DNA of 64,000 nucleotides from Rhizobium leguminosarum (GTDB taxonomy: Bacteria > Pseudomonadota > Alphaproteobacteria > Rhizobiales > Rhizobiaceae). The stretch lies in the NCBI RefSeq assembly GCF_001679785.1, contig NZ_CP016293.1, positions 186,001-250,000 on the forward strand, in the 5' to 3' direction. The position numbers and the translations under genes are program-made. Under the pieces are notes generated by a model. That model was not told the DNA's origin, did no database searches, and saw only the letters and a list, made by a program, of their open reading frames with translations. Of the stretch, positions 50,338 through 60,346 are shown piece after piece; the first letter of the stretch is position 1; each line of letters opens with the position of its first letter.

Positions 50338-50433
50338 CTCAGATAGAGTCGCAACGCGGCGTTCTGCGTGGTCTGCCTGCTACTTTTTCATTTGGGCAAA
50401 AAAGAACCACCGCCTAAGGTGGCGGCAGAATGC

Positions 50434-50448
50434 GCACATTTTCTGTGC
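50434..50448. promoter_or_regulatory. NtrC-type enhancer site (GCAC-N7-GTGC)
   Basis: GCACATTTTCTGTGC fits the NtrC pattern GCAC-N7-GTGC. It is centred 108 bases before the predicted sigma-54 start, the distance of a classical NtrC enhancer site. A partly matching TGCATGCACTATTGCAC lies at 50452-50468. From 50338 to 50430 only a weak CCGCC/GGCGG stem (about 50410-50425) is seen. Confidence 0.55.
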
Positions 50449-50521
50449 AAGTGCATGCACTATTGCACTTGTCAGCGAATTGATGTCATTCGCACCCTCA
50501 ATAAAATCAATGATTTATAAT

Positions 50522-50540
50522 TTGGCACGCACTTTGCTTC
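50522..50540 (+). promoter_or_regulatory. Sigma-54 (RpoN) promoter of the guanidine operon
   Basis: TTGGCACGCACTTTGCTTC matches the consensus TGGCACG-N4-TTGCW. GG (50524-50525, -24) and GC (50536-50537, -12) are separated by exactly ten bases. The predicted start of transcription is about 50549, at the 5' edge of the riboswitch. With the upstream NtrC-type site this predicts expression under nitrogen limitation. Confidence 0.8.
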
Positions 50541-50549
50541 GATAGTTGC

Positions 50550-50661
50550 AGAGTTGGTGGCTAGGGTTCCGGCGTCGCAAGGCGTGACTGGTCCGAGAGC
50601 TGCCACCGGCAGGGGAGACATCCCGCCGGGTGCACGGCGGGACAAAAGCCCGGGAGACCTC
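50550..50661 (+). promoter_or_regulatory. Guanidine-I riboswitch (ykkC class)
   Basis: All the conserved blocks of the ykkC/guanidine-I aptamer occur in order: CTAGGGTTCCG (50561-50571), ACTGGTCCGAGAGC (50587-50600), then GCACGG and GGGACAAAAGCCCGGGAGA (to about 50657). The closing P1 stem can form from TGGCT (50558-50562) and AGCCA (50665-50669). This RNA binds guanidinium and switches downstream genes on. It fits the guanidine-degrading enzymes encoded in the operon. Confidence 0.95.
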
Positions 50662-50668
50662 GTAAGCC

Positions 50669-50707
50669 AAGGGATTGGCGGCACGATGGTCATTGCCGAT
50701 CCCTTTT
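50669..50707 (+). terminator. Riboswitch-controlled terminator (expression platform)
   Basis: AAGGGATTGGC (50669-50679) pairs with GCCGATCCCTT (50695-50705, one U-G wobble), followed by T residues. The 5' arm touches the 3' strand of aptamer stem P1, so ligand-stabilised P1 would disfavour the terminator. The 3' arm CCCTTTT can also pair with AAAAGGG (50718-50724) next to the ribosome-binding site. Confidence 0.75.
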
Positions 50708-50732
50708 GAAGAAAAGCAAAAGGGGAATTTCA

Positions 50733-51806
50733 ATGCAGACTTTTTCGAAGATTCTATCGATTACCGCACTGACGGCGTCCCTGGCGCTCGGGCTCGTTTC
50801 CCAAGCCAAGGCCGAACAGAAGACCGACTTCAAGGTTGCCTGGTCGATCTACGTCGGCTGGATGCCCTGGGGTTATGCCGCTGATCACGGCATTGTCAAG
50901 AAATGGGCCGACAAATACGGCATCAAGATCGAGGTGACCCAGTTCAACGACTACGTCGAATCGATGAACCAGTATACCGCCGGCGCCTTCGACGCCGTGA
51001 CGCTGACCAACATGGACGGTCTGTCGATCCCGGCCGCCGGCGGCGTCGATACCACGGCCGTGATTGTCGGCGACTTTTCGAACGGCAATGATGCCGTCAT
51101 CCTCAAGGACAAGGCGAGTCTTGCCGACATCAAGGGACAGAACGTCAATCTCGTCGAATTTTCCGTCTCGCATTACCTGCTCGCTCGCGCGCTCGAAAGC
51201 ATCAAGCTGACCGAGCGCGACGTGAAAGTGGTCAACACCTCCGACGCCGATATGGTCGCCGCTTATAAGACGGCTGACGTGACTGCGGTCGTCACCTGGA
51301 ACCCGCTGGTCTCAACCATCCTCGAGGATCCCACGGCCAAGAAGGTCTTCGACAGCTCGCAGGTGCCGGGCGAGATCATCGACCTGATGGTCGCCAATTC
51401 CGGCGTGCTGAAGGACAATCCGAATTTCGGCAAGGCGCTCGCCGGCATCTGGTATGAAACCGCAGCACTGCTGACTGCCGACAGTGCCGACGGCAAGGCT
51501 GCGCGCGAGGCGATGGGCCAGGCATCGGGCACCGATCTCAAGGGCTTCGAATCCCAGCTTGCCGCAACCAAGCTGTTTGCCAAGCCGTCCGATGCCGTTG
51601 CCTTCACCGCCTCGGGCAGCCTGCCGAAGACAATGGATCTCGTCCGCAACTTCCTGTTCGAAAAAGGCCTGCTCGGCAATGGCGCGCCGTCCGCCGACGT
51701 CATCGGCATTGAAATGCCTGATGGCAAGATCCTCGGCGATAGCGGCAACGTCAAGCTGCGCTTCACCGAGACCTACATGAAGGCCGCCGCCGACGGTTCG
51801 CTCTGA
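50733..51806 (+). CDS. Guanidine-operon ABC transporter substrate-binding protein (NMT1/TauA-like)
   Basis: 357 aa from the ATG at 50733 behind AAAGGGGAA; a TTG nine codons earlier lies inside the riboswitch terminator. Signal peptide cleaved near AKA-EQ. The mature protein belongs to the nitrate/sulfonate/taurine/thiamine-precursor binding class (SIYVGWMPWGYAADHGIVKKW at the start). Related genes are annotated as urea carboxylase-linked transporters. Because the operon is controlled by a guanidine riboswitch and encodes guanidine breakdown, the likely cargo is guanidine or a guanidine-releasing compound (inference). Confidence 0.87.
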   Translation: MQTFSKILSITALTASLALGLVSQAKAEQKTDFKVAWSIYVGWMPWGYAADHGIVKKWADKYGIKIEVTQFNDYVESMNQYTAGAFDAVTLTNMDGLSIPAAGGVDTTAVIVGDFSNGNDAVILKDKASLADIKGQNVNLVEFSVSHYLLARALESIKLTERDVKVVNTSDADMVAAYKTADVTAVVTWNPLVSTILEDPTAKKVFDSSQVPGEIIDLMVANSGVLKDNPNFGKALAGIWYETAALLTADSADGKAAREAMGQASGTDLKGFESQLAATKLFAKPSDAVAFTASGSLPKTMDLVRNFLFEKGLLGNGAPSADVIGIEMPDGKILGDSGNVKLRFTETYMKAAADGSL

Positions 51807-51821
51807 GCCATGTCAAAGCAG

Positions 51822-51844
51822 CGGTGCGGCGTTGCCGCACCGCC
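51822..51844 (+). terminator. Intercistronic hairpin after the guanidine-binding-protein gene
   Basis: A perfect 10-bp stem GCGGTGCGGC / GCCGCACCGC with a GTT loop, 15 bases after the stop and before the permease start at 51871. No U tract, so it probably sets the ratio of binding protein to membrane subunits. Confidence 0.65.
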
Positions 51845-51870
51845 CACCCTTCATCAGCGGAGCTTTCCCT

Positions 51871-52689
51871 ATGCGCTGGATCAACACGAGGCCGAGCCGG
51901 GGCGCACAGCTTGCCTTGACGCTGCTGCCCTTCGTGCTGCTGATCGTTGCCTATACTTTCGGCTCGGCCGCACGGCTGGCGGAAAACGCCAACGACAAGC
52001 TGCTGCCAGGTCTTGCCGGTTTTGCCGATGCGATCGACCGCCTGGCCTTCATCGCCGATCCGCGCACCGGCCAATACCTGCTCTGGTCCGATACGGGGGC
52101 GAGCCTGATCCGCCTGCTTGCCGGCCTCGGCATCTCCACAGTCACGGCGCTCGTCGTCGGCATGCTGATCGGCATGCTGCCTTATCTCCGAGCCCTGCTC
52201 TCTCCCTTCGTCGCCGTTATCTCGATGGTGCCGCCGCTGGCGCTGCTGCCGATCCTCTTCATCGCCATGGGGCTTGGCGAAGCCTCGAAGATCGCTCTCA
52301 TCGTCATCGGCGTTGCGCCGACGATGATCCGTGACCTTGCGCTGAAGGCGCTGGAACTGCCGCGCGAACAGATCGTCAAGGCTGAAACGCTCGGCGGCTC
52401 TTCCTGGCAGATCGGCCTTCGTGTGGTGCTGCCGCAGATCCTGCCGCGGCTGATCACCTGCCTCAGGCTTCAGCTCGGTCCCGCCTGGCTGTTCCTGATC
52501 GCCGCCGAGGCGATTTCGTCGGATTCCGGTCTCGGCTACCGCATCTTCCTCGTCCGCCGCTATCTCTCGATGGACATCATCTTTCCCTATGTCGTCTGGA
52601 TCACGCTGCTCGCCGTGATCATGAATTATATCCTCGATCGCATCCGCATCGCTGTTTTCCCCTGGTCTGAGCTGGAGAAGCAGGCATGA
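51871..52689 (+). CDS. ABC transporter permease (TauC/SsuC class) of the guanidine operon
   Basis: 272 aa from the ATG at 51871 (GCGGAGC upstream); a 13-codon longer frame starts inside the intercistronic hairpin and is rejected. About six helices; the EAA loop KAETLGGSSWQIGLRVVLPQ near residue 170 is of the nitrate/taurine permease type. The stop overlaps the ATPase start by four bases. Confidence 0.87.
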   Translation: MRWINTRPSRGAQLALTLLPFVLLIVAYTFGSAARLAENANDKLLPGLAGFADAIDRLAFIADPRTGQYLLWSDTGASLIRLLAGLGISTVTALVVGMLIGMLPYLRALLSPFVAVISMVPPLALLPILFIAMGLGEASKIALIVIGVAPTMIRDLALKALELPREQIVKAETLGGSSWQIGLRVVLPQILPRLITCLRLQLGPAWLFLIAAEAISSDSGLGYRIFLVRRYLSMDIIFPYVVWITLLAVIMNYILDRIRIAVFPWSELEKQA

Positions 52690-53516
52690 GCGAGTTGGTG
52701 ATCGAAAAGGTTTGGAAGGAATATGGCGACCAGATCGTCCTCGAGGATGTGTCGCTGACCGTCGCTTCGCGCGCCTTCGTCGCTCTTGTCGGCCCGTCCG
52801 GCTGTGGCAAGTCGACTTTCCTGCGCATGCTGCTCGGCCAGGAGCGACCAACGCGAGGGACGATCCTGCTGGACGGCGAAGCGCTGCCGCAGGAGCCGGG
52901 GCCGGATCGCGGCGTCGTCTTCCAGCGCTACTCCGTCTTCCCGCATCTGACGGTCCTCGGAAACGTGCTGCTCGGGCGGGAACTCTCGGCGTCCCGCTAC
53001 AAGGCCAAGCTTTTCGGCGCCGCCCGCCGCCACGCCATCGACGAAGCCCGGCGGCTGATCGGCGAAGTCGGTCTTTCCGGCGCCGAGGGCAAATATCCGG
53101 CGCAGCTTTCAGGCGGCATGCAGCAGCGCCTGGCGCTGGCGCAGGCGCTGATCATGAAGCCGAAGGTGCTGCTGCTCGATGAGCCCTTCGGTGCGCTCGA
53201 TCCCGGCATCCGCGCCGAAATCCACACATTGATGAAGCGCCTCTGGCACGAAACGCAGATGACCGTCGTCATGGTGACGCACGACATGCGCGAGGCCTTC
53301 ACGCTGGCGACGCGCGTCGTCGCCTTTGAGCGCAAGCGTGACCGCCCGGAAGAAAAGGAGCGCTACGGCGCGACGATCACCAAGGACATTTCGATCTGGC
53401 CGCCGAGGCTTGCCGGCGCGCCTTCCATCTTCAGCCCCGACCGGGACGGCCCGGTCATTTCTCTGGGCCTTCGCCGGGACGACCCGGCTTCCAGTCCGTC
53501 AGGAGAAAAACCATGA
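52686..53516 (+). CDS. ABC transporter ATP-binding protein (TauB/SsuB class) of the guanidine operon
   Basis: 276 aa. Walker [10 protein letters not shown] near residue 38, signature LSGGMQQRLALAQAL, Walker B VLLLDEPFGALD and the H-loop in VMVTHDMREA. It has a short C-terminal tail of about 50 residues, rich in charged residues, beyond the usual fold. It energises import through the permease at 51871. Start and stop each overlap a neighbour by four bases. Confidence 0.88.
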   Translation: MSELVIEKVWKEYGDQIVLEDVSLTVASRAFVALVGPSGCGKSTFLRMLLGQERPTRGTILLDGEALPQEPGPDRGVVFQRYSVFPHLTVLGNVLLGRELSASRYKAKLFGAARRHAIDEARRLIGEVGLSGAEGKYPAQLSGGMQQRLALAQALIMKPKVLLLDEPFGALDPGIRAEIHTLMKRLWHETQMTVVMVTHDMREAFTLATRVVAFERKRDRPEEKERYGATITKDISIWPPRLAGAPSIFSPDRDGPVISLGLRRDDPASSPSGEKP

Positions 53517-54334
53517 TGCATGTCAGACGATCGCCCGAGGAGATCGCTGCCAATCGGCAGCGTTATGAGGAACATCAGAAGAAGGGGCTGGAATTTGCCC
53601 CGACGGCCTTGCCGGCGCCGAGCCCCCTTCCCGCCCCCGCACTCGATGCGGCTGCGATCATCCATCAGGAAACCGTCCCCGGCGGCTGGTACTGGTCGAC
53701 CGCGCTGAAGCGCGGCGAGGCGCTCCGCATCGATCAGGGCGAAGGCGGATCGACCGTGGCGCTCGTCGCCTGGAACGCTACTGATACGAGCGAACGGCTC
53801 AATCTCGTCGATACGGTCAAGGTGCAGTGGACGACTGCCCTCGGCAAGGGCCGTGTCATCTTCTCGGACATGGGCCGGGTGATGTTTTCGCTGATCGAGG
53901 ATAGTTCCGGCGCCCATGACTGCCTGATGGGCGGCTCGACGGCAGCTTCGAACGCTGCAAGATATCCTGGCGTCAAGACCCGCAACACCCGCGACAATCT
54001 CGTGCTCGTCGCCGGCAAACTCGGTCTCACCAGGCGCGATATTCCTGCGATTCTCAATCTCTTCGCCCCGGTCCGCGTCGACGATGACGGTGGCTTCCAC
54101 TGGCGCGGCAAGCTTTCCAACAGCGGCGACTATGCCGAGCTGCGCGCCGAGATGGACATGATCGTCGGCTTCTCCAATTGCCCGCATCCGCTCGACCCCG
54201 ACCCGGTCTATGCGCCGAAGCCGGTGATCGTCACGCGCTTTCGCGCGCCCGCACTTGCAGTCGATGACCTCTCGCGCACCGCGACCGCCGAAGCCCTTCG
54301 CGGCTTTGAGAACAACGTCTCGATGCTGGCCTGA
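53513..54334 (+). CDS. Carboxyguanidine deiminase subunit (urea amidolyase-associated, DUF1989 family)
   Basis: 273 aa. Member of the DUF1989 family long annotated 'urea carboxylase-associated protein'. Its catalytic domain from about residue 45 contains VPGGWYWSTALKRGEALRI, DSSGAHDCLMGGS and MIVGFSNCPHPLDPD, with conserved His and Cys residues that probably bind metal. Work on guanidine metabolism showed that two such proteins (CgdA and CgdB) form a heteromer removing ammonia from carboxyguanidine to give allophanate. The second subunit is next door at 54346. Which is A and which is B is not assigned here. Confidence 0.82.
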   Translation: MMHVRRSPEEIAANRQRYEEHQKKGLEFAPTALPAPSPLPAPALDAAAIIHQETVPGGWYWSTALKRGEALRIDQGEGGSTVALVAWNATDTSERLNLVDTVKVQWTTALGKGRVIFSDMGRVMFSLIEDSSGAHDCLMGGSTAASNAARYPGVKTRNTRDNLVLVAGKLGLTRRDIPAILNLFAPVRVDDDGGFHWRGKLSNSGDYAELRAEMDMIVGFSNCPHPLDPDPVYAPKPVIVTRFRAPALAVDDLSRTATAEALRGFENNVSMLA

Positions 54335-54345
54335 GGAGGATGACG

Positions 54346-54996
54346 ATGACCGATTTCATCAAGACTTCCGCTTCGCGCAGCCTCGAAAACGCCGTGCAGG
54401 ATCATTTCATCGCGGCCGAAGCGCCATGGTCCGGCATCGTGCGCAAGGGCCAGACGATCCGCATCGAGGACAGCTACGGCCAACAGGCAATCGATACGCT
54501 GTTTTATCGTGCCGATGACTTTGCCGAGCGTTATTCCAACCAGGATACGATGCGGGCGCAAGGTGGCGCCTATATCGGCACCGGCACGAAGATCATCTCG
54601 AACGAAGGCAACGTTATGCTTGTCATGACGGCCGACAGCTGCGGCCGGCATGATACGTCGGCCGGCGCCTGCTCCTGCGAGAGCAACACGGTGCGCTTTG
54701 GCCACGGCACCAAATACCTGCATGCCTGCCGCGACAATTTCGTGCTCGAGGTGACAAAACACGGCATGAGCAAGCGCGACATCGTGCCGAACATCAATTT
54801 CTTCATGAACGTGCCGATCAAGCCGAACGGCGAGATGACCATCGTCGACGGCATCTCCGCGCCCGGCGACTATGTCGAACTGGTGGCGGAGATGGACGTG
54901 CTCTGCGTCATCTCCAACTGCCCGCAGATCAACAATCCCTGCAACGGCTTCGATCCGACGCCGGTCCGGGTGCTGATCTGGGACGGCGAGGACTGA
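54346..54996 (+). CDS. Carboxyguanidine deiminase subunit (second DUF1989 protein)
   Basis: 216 aa from the ATG at 54346, seven bases after AGGAGG; an ATG at 54340 is too close to that site. DUF1989 fold with IRIEDSYGQQAIDTLFYRAD near residue 37, a SCGRHDTSAGACSCESNT cluster near 103 and VISNCPQINNPCN near the end, giving several Cys and His likely to bind metal. Partner of the 53513 product; together they convert carboxyguanidine to allophanate and ammonia. Four bases separate it from the carboxylase gene. Confidence 0.83.
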   Translation: MTDFIKTSASRSLENAVQDHFIAAEAPWSGIVRKGQTIRIEDSYGQQAIDTLFYRADDFAERYSNQDTMRAQGGAYIGTGTKIISNEGNVMLVMTADSCGRHDTSAGACSCESNTVRFGHGTKYLHACRDNFVLEVTKHGMSKRDIVPNINFFMNVPIKPNGEMTIVDGISAPGDYVELVAEMDVLCVISNCPQINNPCNGFDPTPVRVLIWDGED

Positions 54997-54999
54997 TCG

Positions 55000-57900
55000 A
55001 TGTTCACCAAGGTCCTTATCGCCAATCGCGGCGAGATCGCCGTCCGCGTCATCCGCACATTGAAGAGGATGGGCATCGCCTCGGTCGCCGTCTATTCCGA
55101 TGCCGATCGGTTCTCGAAGCCGGCGCTGACCGCCGACGAGGCCGTGCGCCTCGGCCCGGCGCCTGCTGCCGAAAGCTATCTTGACGTCGATGCCGTCATC
55201 GCCGCCTGCAAGGCGACGGGAGCCCAGGCCGTGCATCCGGGCTACGGCTTTCTCTCGGAGAATATCGGCTTTGCCGAGCGGCTTGCTGCCGAAGGCATCG
55301 CCTTCATCGGCCCACGGCCGGAACATCTGTCGGCCTTCGGCCTGAAGCACACGGCGCGCGAATTGGCGAAAGCCAGCGGCGTGCCGCTGCTGCCCGGCAC
55401 CGATCTCTTGCAGAGCGTCGACGAGGCGCTTTCGGCTGCCGAGACCGTCGGTTATCCCGTCATGCTGAAAAGCACGGCCGGCGGCGGCGGCATCGGCATG
55501 CAGCTCTGCGCCGATGCAGCAAGCCTCAAGGCCTCTTTCGAAAGCGTGCAGCGGACCGCGCGCGCCAGCTTCGGCGATGCGCGCGTCTACATCGAGCGTT
55601 TCGTTGCCGAAGCGCGCCATGTCGAGGTGCAGATCTTCGGCGACGGCAAGGGTGGAGTGATTGCGCTCGGCGAACGCGACTGCTCGCTGCAGCGGCGGAA
55701 CCAGAAGGTGGTCGAGGAAACGCCTGCGCCTGGTCTTTCCTCGGAGACAAGGGCGCGGCTGCACAAGGCGGCGGTCGATTTGGGATGCTCGGTCTCCTAT
55801 GAATCGGCCGGCACCGTCGAATTCATCTATGATCCCCAGCGCGAGGAATTTTATTTCCTCGAGGTCAATACCCGCCTGCAGGTCGAGCATCCCGTCACGG
55901 AAGCCGTTTTCGGCATCGACCTCGTCGAATGGATGATCCGGCAGGCGGCCGGCGAGGACGTGCTCTCGGGCGCCAGGGGCCTGACGCCGAAGGGTGCGGC
56001 GATCGAGATGCGTGTTTATGCCGAGATGCCGCATGCCGATTTCCGTCCGAGTGCCGGCCTGCTGACTGAGGTCGTCTTCCCGGACAATGCCCGCGTCGAC
56101 GGCTGGATCGAGACGGGAACCGAGGTCACGCCCTTCTACGACCCGATGCTCGCCAAATTGATCGTGGCGGCGGAAGACCGGCCGGCGGCGATCGAGAAGC
56201 TGAAGGCAGCACTCGCCGAAACATCGATATCGGGCATCGAGACCAATCTCGATTATTTGAGAACGATCGCCGCTTCCGAATTGCTGGCCAGCGCCAAAGT
56301 GGCGACGACGGCGCTACGCGACTTCGCCTTCGTTCCCGATGTCGTCGAGGTGCTTGCGCCCGGGGCGCAATCGAGCATTCAGGAACTGCCGGGGCGGCTC
56401 GGCCTGTGGCACGTCGGCGTACCGCCGAGCGGGCCGATGGACGAACGCTCCTTCCGCCATGCCAACCGGCTGGTCGGCAATGCCGATGTGACGGCTGCGC
56501 TGGAGTTGACCGTTTCCGGTCCGACGCTGCGGTTTTATGCCGACCAGACGATCGCGCTTGCCGGCGCGCGGATGCCCATGACATGCGACGGCGTAAAATT
56601 GCCGCATGACACCCCGGTGACAATCCGGGCCGGCCAGGTCCTGTCGATCGGTTCGATCGAAGGACCGGGACAACGCGCCTATCTCGCCGTCGCCCGTGGT
56701 TTTGCCGCTCCCGTCGTGCTCGGCTCGAGGGCGACCTTCGGCCTCGGCCAATTCGGCGGCAATGCCACCGGCACGCTGAAAACGGGGCATGTGCTGCATT
56801 TTGCCCGCCAAGTGCCGGCCGAACCGGCAACGCCTGCGACGGAGCCGGCCGCCTTGACGCGCGAATGGGATGTCGGCGTCGTTTACGGCCCGCACGGCGC
56901 GCCTGATTTCTTTCAGGACGGGGATATCGAGACGCTGTTTTCGACGGCTTACGAGGTACATTTCAACAGCGCCCGCACCGGCGTTCGCCTCATCGGCCCG
57001 GCCCCGGTTTGGGCGCGCCGCGATGGCGGCGAGGCGGGGCTGCACCCCTCCAACCTGCACGACAATGCCTATGCGATCGGGGCGATCGATTTCACCGGCG
57101 ACATGCCGATCATTCTCGGTCCTGACGGCCCGAGCCTTGGCGGCTTCGTTTGCCCGGCGGTGATTGCCCGGGACGAGCAGTGGAAGATGGGCCAGTTCAA
57201 GCCCGGCGACCTCATCCGTTTTCATGCAGTAGTGCGACCGGAAGACCCGATCGCCGGCCCTGCAGTGCGGCGGGTCACGGAAGAGACAGGCTCGCCGATC
57301 GTCGGCATCAGCGAGGATGGCCCGGTTTCCGTCGTTTATCGCCGCCAGGGCGACGACAATCTGCTCGTCGAATATGGGCCGATGACGCTCGATATCGCGC
57401 TGCGGCTGCGGGTGCACCTGCTGATGCAGGCAGTCATCGAGGCCCGCCTTCCCGGCGTCGTCGACCTCACCCCCGGCATCCGTTCCCTGCAGATCCATTA
57501 CGACGGCACGCAGTTGACGCGCCGGCGCCTGCTGGGATTGCTCTCCGAGATCGAGGCGACGCTTCCGGCAGCCCAGGAGGTCACGGTGCCGAGCCGCATC
57601 GTGCATCTGCCGCTGTCCTGGAACGATCCGGATGCGGAGCTTGCGATGCGCAAATATCAGGAACTCGTTCGCCCGAACGCACCCTGGTGCCCATCGAATA
57701 TCGAGTTCATCCGCCGCATCAACGGCCTTCCCGACGAGCAGGCCGTCCGCGATATCGTCTTTGATGCAAGCTATCTGGTGCTCGGTCTCGGCGACGTCTA
57801 TCTCGGCGCGCCGGTTGCGACCCCGACCGATCCACGCCACCGCCTCGTGACGACGAAATACAATCCCGCCCGCACCTGGACGCCGGAAAATGCCGTCGGC

Positions 57901-58539
57901 ATCGGCGGCGCCTATATGTGCATTTACGGCATGGAAGGACCGGGCGGCTACCAGCTCTTCGGCCGCACCATCCAGGTCTGGAACACATGGCGGGAGACAC
58001 CGGCCTTTGCCAGGGGCAAACCCTGGCTGCTGAACTTCTTCGACCAGATCCGGTTCTTCCCGGTCAGCAACCAGGAACTGACGGAGGCGCGCGCCGCCTT
58101 CCCGCATGGCGGCTATCCGATCCGGATCGAGGAAACGGAATTCTCCTATGCCGCCTACGAGAAGGAATTGCAGGCGAATTCGGCGTCGATCGGTCGCTTC
58201 AAGGCAACGCAGCAGGCCGCCTTCGATACTGAGCGCCAGCGCTGGAAGGAAGCCGGGCTCGACAGCTTCGTCACCGATGAAGGCACTGGCGAAAGCCCGG
58301 ATGGGGATATTCCCGACGGCTGCTTCGGGGTTGCCAGCGCCGTGCCCGGCAATATCTGGAAATTGCTGGTCGAGCCGGGTGCCTCGGTTGCGGCCGGCGA
58401 TACACTCGCCATCATCGAATCGATGAAAATGGAAATCAACGTCACCGCCCATGCGGCAGGCCGCGTCCGCGACCTGCGCGCCGGGCCGGGAAGAAACGTC
58501 AAAGCCGGCGATATCATCGTCGTTCTGGAGGAATGCTGA
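55000..58539 (+). CDS. Biotin-dependent guanidine carboxylase (urea carboxylase family)
   Basis: 1179 aa, full length for the family. Residues 1 to about 450 are the ATP-grasp biotin carboxylase domain (KVLIANRGEIAVRVIRTLKR at the start, ERDCSLQRRNQKVVEE, LEVNTRLQVEHPVTE). About 460-780 form a KipA-like and about 800-1080 a KipI-like carboxyltransferase half. The C-terminal biotin carrier domain has IIESMKMEINV with biotinyl-lysine K1143. The enzyme carboxylates guanidine with ATP and bicarbonate. Riboswitch control and linked deiminase genes favour guanidine over urea; the substrate-selective active-site residue was not checked. Confidence 0.88.
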   Translation: MFTKVLIANRGEIAVRVIRTLKRMGIASVAVYSDADRFSKPALTADEAVRLGPAPAAESYLDVDAVIAACKATGAQAVHPGYGFLSENIGFAERLAAEGIAFIGPRPEHLSAFGLKHTARELAKASGVPLLPGTDLLQSVDEALSAAETVGYPVMLKSTAGGGGIGMQLCADAASLKASFESVQRTARASFGDARVYIERFVAEARHVEVQIFGDGKGGVIALGERDCSLQRRNQKVVEETPAPGLSSETRARLHKAAVDLGCSVSYESAGTVEFIYDPQREEFYFLEVNTRLQVEHPVTEAVFGIDLVEWMIRQAAGEDVLSGARGLTPKGAAIEMRVYAEMPHADFRPSAGLLTEVVFPDNARVDGWIETGTEVTPFYDPMLAKLIVAAEDRPAAIEKLKAALAETSISGIETNLDYLRTIAASELLASAKVATTALRDFAFVPDVVEVLAPGAQSSIQELPGRLGLWHVGVPPSGPMDERSFRHANRLVGNADVTAALELTVSGPTLRFYADQTIALAGARMPMTCDGVKLPHDTPVTIRAGQVLSIGSIEGPGQRAYLAVARGFAAPVVLGSRATFGLGQFGGNATGTLKTGHVLHFARQVPAEPATPATEPAALTREWDVGVVYGPHGAPDFFQDGDIETLFSTAYEVHFNSARTGVRLIGPAPVWARRDGGEAGLHPSNLHDNAYAIGAIDFTGDMPIILGPDGPSLGGFVCPAVIARDEQWKMGQFKPGDLIRFHAVVRPEDPIAGPAVRRVTEETGSPIVGISEDGPVSVVYRRQGDDNLLVEYGPMTLDIALRLRVHLLMQAVIEARLPGVVDLTPGIRSLQIHYDGTQLTRRRLLGLLSEIEATLPAAQEVTVPSRIVHLPLSWNDPDAELAMRKYQELVRPNAPWCPSNIEFIRRINGLPDEQAVRDIVFDASYLVLGLGDVYLGAPVATPTDPRHRLVTTKYNPARTWTPENAVGIGGAYMCIYGMEGPGGYQLFGRTIQVWNTWRETPAFARGKPWLLNFFDQIRFFPVSNQELTEARAAFPHGGYPIRIEETEFSYAAYEKELQANSASIGRFKATQQAAFDTERQRWKEAGLDSFVTDEGTGESPDGDIPDGCFGVASAVPGNIWKLLVEPGASVAAGDTLAIIESMKMEINVTAHAAGRVRDLRAGPGRNVKAGDIIVVLEEC

Positions 58540-58540
58540 C

Positions 58541-60346
58541 ATGCTGCCGACCATCCTCGATCTCTCAAGCCTTCGCGCCGCCTATCAATCCGGCCTGACG
58601 CCGCTCGACGCCATCGAAGAGGTGATCACGCGGCGTGCCGCCTCGAAAGATCCGGCGATCTTCATCACCCCGGTGCCGGATGACGAGCTGCGCGCGGCCG
58701 CAAAAGCGCTGATGGCACGCGCGCCCGAGGCAAACAGCCTGCCGCTCTGGGGCGTTCCCTTCGCCGTCAAAGACAATATCGATGCCGCCGGCCTGCCGAC
58801 GACCGCGGCTTGCCCTGCCTATGCGTATCGGCCGGAAGCCGACTCCACCGTCGTTGCCCGGTTGAAGGCGGCCGGCGCCATCATCATCGGCAAGACCAAT
58901 CTCGACCAGTTCGCGACCGGCCTCAGCGGCACGCGCTCGCCCTATGGCGCGCCACGTTCGGTCTTCGATGCGGCCTATATCTCCGGCGGTTCGAGCTCCG
59001 GATCGGCGGTCACGGTGGCCTCCGGCCTCGCCGCCTTCGCGCTCGGGACCGATACGGCCGGCTCCGGCCGCGTGCCTGCCGCCTTCAACAATCTGGTCGG
59101 CATCAAGCCGACGCCGGGTCTCTTGCCGAATACCGGCGCCATACCGGCCTGCAAGAGCGTCGACTGCATCACCATCTTTGCCGCGACCGTCGGCGACGGT
59201 GTTGCGATCCGCAAGGTCGCCGAAGGCTTCGATGCCGCCGATCCTTTCTCGCGTCGCGCCAAACCGGCGAAGCTGCCGGTGTCGGGCTTGCGCATCGGCG
59301 TCCTGACCGATGCCGAGCGGGAGTTCTTCGGCGACAAGGAGGTGGAGGCGCTCTACGATCAGGCGATCGAGCGGGCCAAAGCACTCGGCGCAACCATCGT
59401 GCCGTTCGACTACGCGCCATTCCGCGAGGCTGCCGCCCTTCTCTATGACGGGCCGTGGGTCGCCGAACGTCTGGCGGCGGTCGAGACCTTCCTTGCCACC
59501 AACGCGGCCGATTTCGACCCGACGGTCAGAGGAATTATCGAAGGCGCCAAGGGCAAGACCGCGGTCGAGGCTTTCAACGGCCGATACCGGCTGGAGGAAT
59601 TGCGCCGCAAGACCGAGGCCGAATGGGAAAAGGCCGATGTGCTTCTGCTGCCGACCGCACCGACCACTTACTCGGTCGCCGACATGCTGGCCAATCCCGT
59701 CGTGCTCAACGGCCGCCTCGGTCGCTACACCAATTTCGTCAACCTGCTCGATTGCGCGGCGATCGCCGTTCCGGCCGGCTTCGGCAAAGGTGGGCTGCCG
59801 GGCGGCGTTACCGTCATCGCGCCCGCCTTCACCGACGATGCGCTGGCGCCGCTTGCCGATGCGCTGCACCGTGCAGCAGGTTCCGGCATGGGCATCGACC
59901 GGCAGACGGCAATACCGGAAGCGAGCCGTGTTGTGCCTGGCGATGACGGTTTCATCGAAATCGTGGTCGTCGGTGCGCATCTGACCGGCATGCCGCTCAA
60001 TCACGAACTGGCAGGCTCGGGCGGGCATCTGGTCAAGACCTGCCGCACGGCCGGGGATTATCGCCTCTTCGTTCTGCCCAATACTACGCCGCCGAAACCG
60101 GGGCTGCTGCGCGAACCCGGCCATAAGGGTCAGGGGCTAGAGGTCGAGGTCTGGGCACTGCCGGCCGATGCTTTCGGCAGGTTCGTCCAGAAGATTCCGG
60201 CACCCCTCGGCATCGGCAAGCTCACGCTCGAAGACGGTTCCAGCGTCTCCGGCTTCGTCTGCGAGGCCCATGCGGTGAAAGGTGCCGAGGAAATCACCGC
60301 GCTTGGCGGCTGGCGCAACTATATCAGCGCCAAGCTGGCGAGCTGA
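58541..60346 (+). CDS. atzF: Allophanate hydrolase
   Basis: 601 aa from the ATG at 58541, right after the carboxylase stop. An upstream in-frame extension is rejected because it overlaps the carboxylase. N-terminal amidase-signature domain with the Ser-cisSer-Lys triad K77 (VKDNID), S151 (GGSSSGSA) and S175 (GTDTAGSGRVPA). The C-terminal domain of about 140 residues is the extra AtzF-type domain needed for complete conversion. It hydrolyses allophanate to ammonia and carbon dioxide, the last step of guanidine nitrogen release. Confidence 0.9.
   Translation: MLPTILDLSSLRAAYQSGLTPLDAIEEVITRRAASKDPAIFITPVPDDELRAAAKALMARAPEANSLPLWGVPFAVKDNIDAAGLPTTAACPAYAYRPEADSTVVARLKAAGAIIIGKTNLDQFATGLSGTRSPYGAPRSVFDAAYISGGSSSGSAVTVASGLAAFALGTDTAGSGRVPAAFNNLVGIKPTPGLLPNTGAIPACKSVDCITIFAATVGDGVAIRKVAEGFDAADPFSRRAKPAKLPVSGLRIGVLTDAEREFFGDKEVEALYDQAIERAKALGATIVPFDYAPFREAAALLYDGPWVAERLAAVETFLATNAADFDPTVRGIIEGAKGKTAVEAFNGRYRLEELRRKTEAEWEKADVLLLPTAPTTYSVADMLANPVVLNGRLGRYTNFVNLLDCAAIAVPAGFGKGGLPGGVTVIAPAFTDDALAPLADALHRAAGSGMGIDRQTAIPEASRVVPGDDGFIEIVVVGAHLTGMPLNHELAGSGGHLVKTCRTAGDYRLFVLPNTTPPKPGLLREPGHKGQGLEVEVWALPADAFGRFVQKIPAPLGIGKLTLEDGSSVSGFVCEAHAVKGAEEITALGGWRNYISAKLAS

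Follow-up and report, generated by a model that had tools for sequence, protein, structure and literature searches.

A strongly supported sigma-54 promoter directly precedes a guanidine-I riboswitch aptamer at the head of a putative guanidine operon in Rhizobium leguminosarum. This promoter-riboswitch module is real and conserved, probably has two inputs and is apparently undescribed. It was studied in a window of 64,000 nucleotides (contig NZ_CP016293.1, positions 186,001 to 250,000 of the forward strand), to which the coordinates below refer. Because the guanidine-sensing RNA lies directly behind a nitrogen-starvation promoter, two signals are probably needed at once, and the region is quite probably a control module that answers to low nitrogen together with guanidine and governs the use of guanidine as a nitrogen source.

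The predicted promoter and the aptamer

Positions 50523-50538 on the plus strand carry TGGCACGCACTTTGCT, a predicted sigma-54 promoter of the form TGGCACG-N4-TTGCT with conserved -24 and -12 blocks. It shows no mismatch to the sigma-54 consensus TGGCACG-N4-TTGCW and lies 27 nt upstream of the guanidine-I aptamer defined by Rfam. The GG-N10-GC core that an initial annotation of this DNA had described as near-consensus falls within the site at 50524-50537. In PMC5491218 the sigma-54 consensus is written GGcacg-N4-ttGC. Transcription is predicted to begin at 50549 on the plus strand, 12 nt past the -12 C at 50537. The aptamer (RF00442; cmscan 80.8 bits against a gathering score of 63, E 8e-13) occupies 50550-50658 of the same strand, one base after the predicted start, in keeping with the earlier proposal that the transcript opens with the first base of the aptamer.

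The promoter match is by itself suggestive: TGGCAC-N(4-6)-TTGCW has a single match in the 64 kb against 0.11 expected, with at least one match in nine of 100 shuffles, and TGGCACN5TTGCW has nine matches in the 8.57 Mb genome against two for the reversed pattern. What places the promoter far beyond chance is not the match alone but its conservation, a site being present at all 75 aptamers of the genus. The initial annotation had named unconserved -24/-12 elements in close relatives as a result that would count against it; across the 75 genus upstreams the identity to the window is 0.91 for the -24 block and 0.94 for the -12 block, with 0.43 for the spacer. Elsewhere in the same genome, another sigma-54 promoter with TGCCTAAAGTATAGGCA precedes the gene of a binding protein that weakly resembles SsuA (L269).

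A sigma-70-like site, TTGATG-16-TAAAAT, is present at 50480-50507. It matches nine of 12 positions and its -10 reaches an identity of 0.78 in the genus, so that it might supply the main expression and reduce the sigma-54 site to a minor or condition-specific second promoter. Its -35 is nevertheless unconserved (0.25), the -10 overlaps a conserved IHF-like block and the sigma-54 blocks are better conserved (0.91, 0.94), which makes a leading role for sigma-70 decidedly improbable. Conservation, together with the controls described below, strongly supports the predicted sigma-54 promoter abutting the aptamer.

Conservation among alphaproteobacteria

The alphaproteobacterial sample comprised the listed guanidine-I places over the cut-off and two class places below it (L180, L181); L182, a class locus at a contig edge, G940 and the order places below the cut-off were left out. 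A site was counted when GG and GC were fixed, when no more than two mismatches to TGGCACG-N4-TTGCW were present and when the match fell at -36 to -16 of the aptamer. The search for the motif upstream of other Rhizobiales guanidine-I aptamers, suggested in the initial annotation, returned sites at 75 of 75 genus aptamers and at 69 of 87 in the rest of the order (74 at up to three mismatches), the order matches coming from 31 of 39 genera and 19 of 21 families. Beyond the order, alphaproteobacteria have a site at 12 of 23 aptamers, or 13 at up to three mismatches. No site with two or fewer mismatches was found at -36 to -16 of the remaining 18 order and 11 other alphaproteobacterial aptamers; L094, L126, L170 and L172 are misses that differ by a single change to the GC core, roughly in the right place.

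In the 87 alphaproteobacterial loci that lie outside the genus, information content reaches 1.7-2.0 bits at the -24 T, GG, C and A and at the -12 TGC, values raised because GG and GC were fixed and at most three mismatches were required, and the spacer and flanks carry 0.12-0.40 and 0.02-0.27 bits, respectively. At four loci of one genus (L087, L106, L116, L121) the aptamer stands before deiminase/carboxylase genes without a sigma-54 site; two of those four genomes (G290, G132) have a second aptamer, before a transporter, with a sigma-54 site.

Other proteobacteria, other phyla and controls

Absence of the promoter from non-alpha Pseudomonadota was considered and dismissed: only one of 40 loci has a site at -36 to -16, but 36 of 40 have one within -130 to -14 (37 at three mismatches), mostly at -49 to -99, the shuffle rate for this wider search being 0.65%. 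The promoter-aptamer pair is thus kept at these loci and the leader is longer. Within this longer leader, a recurring CACAAT-type element lies in the last 15 nt 5' of the aptamer at L185, L191 and L195. That the motif keeps a nearly constant distance from the aptamer in alphaproteobacteria could suggest that it belongs to the RNA element, or is a relic of shared descent, and is no promoter; yet the same consensus lies further out in the non-alpha loci, the spacer is free to vary and the motif is missing from those genomes sampled that have no rpoN or no confident ntrC, and such an origin is scarcely credible.

A sample of named genomes was chosen by the aptamer alone. Its first 80 loci held 83 aptamers, 81 of them usable; among the matches listed, a site was found at 38 of 51 from Pseudomonadota (alpha 11/16, beta/gamma 27/35) and at none of 30 from other phyla (Bacillota 19, Cyanobacteriota 7, Actinomycetota 3, Campylobacterota 1). 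In 40 further named loci, examined afterwards, the corresponding counts among the matches listed were 18 of 24 (19 at three mismatches) and none of 17, or two of 17 at three mismatches, both from Cyanobium. Matches listed in this further set include Bradyrhizobium, Hoeflea, Parvibaculum and several Pseudomonas, and misses include Gluconobacter, a Rhodobacteraceae bin, Microbulbifer and Marinagarivorans. Combined, the matches listed give 56 of 75 for Pseudomonadota and none of 47 for other phyla, the named and other samples not being independent because at least L304, L310, L314, L332, L336 and L348 occur in both. L348 and L335, with less than 130 nt upstream, and L365, with 40 nt, were left out of the named sets. 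In E. coli genomes no aptamer match appeared at the search sensitivity used. Among the guanidine-I loci sampled from proteobacteria, no other arrangement is as common as this promoter-aptamer pairing; the tandem had earlier been proposed for rhizobia, a scope that holds for Rhizobium and is too narrow, as alpha- and other proteobacteria have it too.

As controls, a site occurs in 38 of 32,400 dinucleotide shuffles and in one of 161 of the same guanidine-I upstreams at -300 to -60. For 30 of the TPP riboswitches listed, no site was found at -36 to -16 and one over -300 to -16. Guanidine-II riboswitches bind the same ligand as guanidine-I, and of the 30 examined among the 67 listed none had a sigma-54 site in -150 to -14. 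The first reading frame behind these 30, judged by eye, is a small exporter at 14, a carboxylase at eight and a DUF1989 protein at two; only the exporter loci make a fair promoter control, because the carboxylase and DUF1989 loci lie inside operons. Among the matches listed, 49 of 53 named proteobacterial aptamers are followed by an operon homologue and 15 of 19 Bacillota aptamers stand before the exporter type, labelled SMR by family resemblance rather than by a library scan, lineage and function being partly confounded in these exporter and other-phyla comparisons. The pairing of promoter and aptamer is real and widely conserved and, in the samples taken, is found with one riboswitch class specifically.

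Upstream dyads and the activator

Two candidate NtrC-like sites, both plus-strand matches to YGCM-N9-KGCR, lie upstream: site 1 (CGCCTAAGGTGGCGGCA) at 50411-50427 and site 2 (CGCACATTTTCTGTGCA) at 50433-50449. Site 2 includes the GCAC-N7-GTGC dyad that had been reported 108 bases before the start; it was located at 50434-50448, and its centre, 50441, is indeed 108 nt before 50549. The two sites are 22 nt apart, a spacing counted 14 times in those 16 genus loci whose -180 to -60 region has at least two sites. Over 75 genus upstreams, the mean identity of site 2 to the window is 0.68 against 0.50 for the following 30 nt. Site 1 overlaps a terminator-like hairpin on the minus strand; in some relatives (e.g. 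L022) its dyad is kept and the hairpin stem is, by eye, weaker. Just after site 2, a segment at 50447-50460 (GCAAGTGCATGCAC) with the perfect palindrome GTGCATGCAC is strongly conserved in close relatives.

The exact GCAC-N7-GTGC form occurs at 21 of 75 loci in the genus, one of 74 in the rest of the order, none of 13 in the class and 10 of 40 in non-alpha Pseudomonadota. As a general motif it was dropped for YGCM-N9-KGCR: an unbiased dyad count yielded it in the genus and non-alpha loci and TGCC-N9-GGCA in the order, and both forms fit the broader pattern. Loci with YGCM-N9-KGCR number 31 of 75 in the genus (9.9 when shuffled), 37 of 74 in the order (11.1), eight of 13 in the class (3.1) and 20 of 40 in non-alpha Pseudomonadota (7.4). 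Enrichment in the alphaproteobacterial groups is seen only at a spacing of nine, with N7, N8, N10 and N11 at or near background, and the genus dyads are centred mostly at -110 to -130. The dyad is also enriched in 13 order loci without a sigma-54 site (six against 2.1), as is the reverse-order dyad KGCR-N9-YGCM in the genus (25 against 10.1). No match to YGCM-N9-KGCR was found in -220 to -40 of 86 of the 162 site-bearing alphaproteobacterial loci; the genus accounts for 44 of these, out of 75, and the order for 37, out of 74.

Between dyads and promoter, AATCAATGATTTA at 50505-50517 of the plus strand resembles an IHF site. An IHF-like site falls in the same 10-nt bin at 50 of 75 genus loci against a shuffle mean of 0.7; outside the genus the count is two of 74 in the rest of the order and none of 13 and 40 beyond.

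The genome encodes an NtrC with the GAFTGA motif (L421, 698.5 bits), two RpoN proteins over the cut-off (G000:C1:4504986-4506476 and G000:C5:486574-488061) and six further NtrC-like regulators at 267 bits or more. Caulobacter has an NtrC without GAFTGA that acts at sigma-70 promoters (PMC12421884). Alphaproteobacterial genomes with no rpoN match (G968, L303, L302) or a 39-bit fragment (G1051, equivalent to L314) have no site, and neither do G1090, with rpoN just under the cut-off at 275.1 bits, and G454, with rpoN in pieces. Missing rpoN accounts for few of the absent sites, however, because 19 of the 23 site-lacking alphaproteobacterial genomes tested have it over the cut-off.

Of 11 named genomes picked, five have ntrC over the cut-off; three of these have a site and two (L331, L274) do not. 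The six without a confident ntrC (three Nitrosomonas/Nitrosospira, Aliarcobacter, Marivita and one alphaproteobacterial assembly) all lack the site, a co-absence that is supportive and no test, because the genomes were picked with site status known and some are draft bins. The Nitrosomonas/Nitrosospira loci L305, L307 and L340 come from genomes that have rpoN but neither a sigma-54 site there nor an ntrC above the cut-off. In the ammonia oxidisers sampled, guanidine may matter as an energy source.

Published genetics come from Burkholderia cenocepacia H111 shifted to 0.3 mM ammonium, where RNA-seq of an ntrC mutant showed that I35_7283-7286 lose transcript under nitrogen limitation (PMC5491218). 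The mutant had no reads for I35_7285 or for I35_7283, annotated as an ABC binding protein related to urea carboxylase, and the fold-change column gives -6.0 for I35_7286, a urea carboxylase (log2 being the scale of the text). The paper assigns these genes to urea utilisation; the operons called urea carboxylase in that work are probably guanidine operons. A search for the B. cenocepacia locus on a plasmid found no copy.

These data also bear on whether the sigma-54 promoter is served by an activator other than NtrC, which would mean that the first input is not nitrogen status. The 86 site-bearing loci without the dyad and the six additional regulators in the genome would allow this, against which stand the restriction of enrichment to N9 and its position in the genus, the missing site in the six picked genomes, the Burkholderia mutant (PMC5491218) and the fact that the pathway yields ammonia. 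A different activator is accordingly considered unlikely, and the N9 dyad, the co-absence and the Burkholderia RNA-seq support NtrC as the probable activator.

The leader and its helices

Downstream of the aptamer on the plus strand, an 11-bp hairpin, H1 (AAGGGATTGGC/GCCGATCCCTT, 50669-50705), is terminator-like or may act as an anti-anti-Shine-Dalgarno, and a competing helix, H2 (TCCCTTTTG/CAAAAGGGG, 50700-50725), hides the Shine-Dalgarno in predicted folds. In 74 of 75 genus leaders, H1 has 10-11 bp followed by four to six T after CCC, H2 pairs 9-11 bp with the Shine-Dalgarno and the segment TCCCTTTT can pair alternatively with the upstream arm (H1) or with the Shine-Dalgarno (H2). H2 is present both in the RNAalifold consensus and in the single-sequence fold. 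In the window, H1 is followed by four T after CCC, two of them within the stem, and a terminator scan reported no plus-strand terminator. The terminator is the weak part of the initial annotation and corresponds to this 11-bp hairpin at 50669-50705. The riboswitch may work by averting termination or by exposing the Shine-Dalgarno.

The second mode would make the riboswitch translational: with guanidine bound, H1 would capture the anti-Shine-Dalgarno and free the ribosome site, and nitrogen alone would set transcription. The near-universal pairing of H2 with the Shine-Dalgarno in the genus and in the consensus fold, the short T-run without a plus-strand terminator call and the Burkholderia operon transcripts seen in a medium naming no guanidine (PMC5491218) are set against the usual behaviour of guanidine-I as a transcriptional ON switch (PMC12186494) and the possibility that H1, with four to six T, could terminate. 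Covariation gives no guide between the two modes because H1 and H2 are nearly invariant. Translational control comes close to an even chance, falling slightly short of it, and is compatible with the two-input model.

The operon and its embedded guanidine-II switch

All operon features lie on the plus strand. The first member assigned by the family scan (50733-51806) is followed by an ABC permease (51832-52689, PF00528), an ABC ATPase (52686-53516, PF00005), the DUF1989 proteins UAAP1 (53513-54334, TIGR03425), by family a carboxyguanidine deiminase subunit, and UAAP2 (54340-54996, TIGR03424), a carboxylase of the urea/guanidine type (55000-58539, TIGR02712), by sequence probably a guanidine carboxylase, and an allophanate hydrolase (58541-60346, TIGR02713, scanned from 58529). 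An ABC importer, the DUF1989 pair, carboxylase and allophanate hydrolase therefore occur together, as expected of the guanidine operon announced in the initial annotation. Two guanidine riboswitches point to guanidine, not urea, as the likely substrate; in general, a guanidine carboxylase differs from a urea carboxylase by an active-site Asp in place of Asn (PMC12186494). The second riboswitch, a guanidine-II element (cmscan 40.2 bits, gathering score 32), lies at 53438-53487 within the last codons of the ATPase gene and just ahead of the first DUF1989 gene; a similar embedded pattern is found at 73 of 75 loci in the genus and at 21 of 87 in the rest of the order.

The control region is 94-97% identical in 40 records among the matches listed, from plasmids of the R. 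leguminosarum group, and the operon is annotated as urea genes in Rhizobium johnstonii 3841, where it lies on pRL9 as RL_RS27275-27305. A homologue of the operon lies downstream at 156 of 161 window, genus and order loci, and an exporter query had no match downstream at any of the 161. At L074, L120, L125, L149, L151 and L157, the aptamer and a sigma-54 site stand before a different ABC transporter, its ATPase 37-39% identical to that of the window, which is possibly an importer of other guanidino compounds.

A two-input model

Under nitrogen limitation, phosphorylated NtrC bound some 110-130 nt upstream would activate sigma-54 RNA polymerase at 50523-50538, probably assisted in the genus by IHF-mediated DNA bending. 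The transcript would begin at about 50549, so the guanidine-I aptamer would be the first thing made, and guanidine would then decide operon expression, whether it acts against termination or releases the Shine-Dalgarno. The internal guanidine-II switch would add control over the deiminase gene. The start site, the binding of NtrC and IHF and the direction and mode of the riboswitch are inferred here from sequence. AND logic is the natural reading of the arrangement, partly backed by the genetics published for a relative. Of the two-key lock originally proposed, in which transcription starts only when nitrogen is short and continues only with guanidine, the sigma-54 promoter adjoining the aptamer stands; guanidine-dependent continuation is one of two possibilities, as a Shine-Dalgarno-hiding helix is kept in the leader alongside the terminator-like hairpin. 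The medium in PMC5491218 names no guanidine, and reads from the Burkholderia operon in it suggest that the second key is leaky.

A broader reading is also favoured, if with less confidence: the NtrC/sigma-54 promoter and the guanidine-I aptamer would form one conserved coincidence detector across Pseudomonadota, with the aptamer at the very start of the transcript in alphaproteobacteria, the gate being missing where sigma-54 or NtrC is missing and in the three ammonia-oxidiser loci, and reported guanidine induction would in part be nitrogen de-repression. If assimilation operons answer guanidine only at low nitrogen, while the sampled guanidine-II loci, many of them before exporters, are without the promoter, then the nutrient and toxin roles of guanidine would be separated by promoter choice.

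Comparison with known systems

Why bacteria sense free guanidine is described as an open question in the abstract of PMC12186494. The guanidine carboxylase operons of Raoultella, Klebsiella and Vreelandella (PMC12186494, PMC12508155) share with the present locus the aptamer class, the operon content and an extra internal guanidine-II switch, and the passages on them name no promoter type or nitrogen control. Operon proteins were found on guanidine and nearly none on ammonium (PMC12508155), a comparison that shifted both inputs together because each compound served as sole nitrogen source. The Burkholderia operon (PMC5491218) is NtrC-dependent and resembles the present one in annotation. Sigma-54 control is likewise predicted in PMC12316311 for nitrate-type ABC genes and for COG3665, with genes called urea carboxylase in alpha-, beta- and gammaproteobacteria; its main text is without guanidine and its lone mention of a riboswitch is in the references. 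Passages of PMC8390497 and PMC11410670 make no mention of NtcA/NtrC or sigma; in those of the review PMC12186494, 'sigma' has no match and the sole match to 'Ntr' is an author name. The open-licence PMC literature searched yielded no paper that connects sigma-54 or NtrC with guanidine riboswitches.

NtrC and sigma-54 govern nitrogen-scavenging operons such as glnK and those for nitrate and urea uptake. The present locus has in common with them the -24/-12 promoter, the upstream dyads and the genes for uptake of a nitrogen source; unlike them, its transcript is opened by a metabolite-sensing RNA. Cyanobacteria place glutamine riboswitches under NtcA control. There too a global nitrogen regulator is paired with an RNA sensor of a nitrogen metabolite, but that system does not involve sigma-54, recognizes another ligand and belongs to another phylum.
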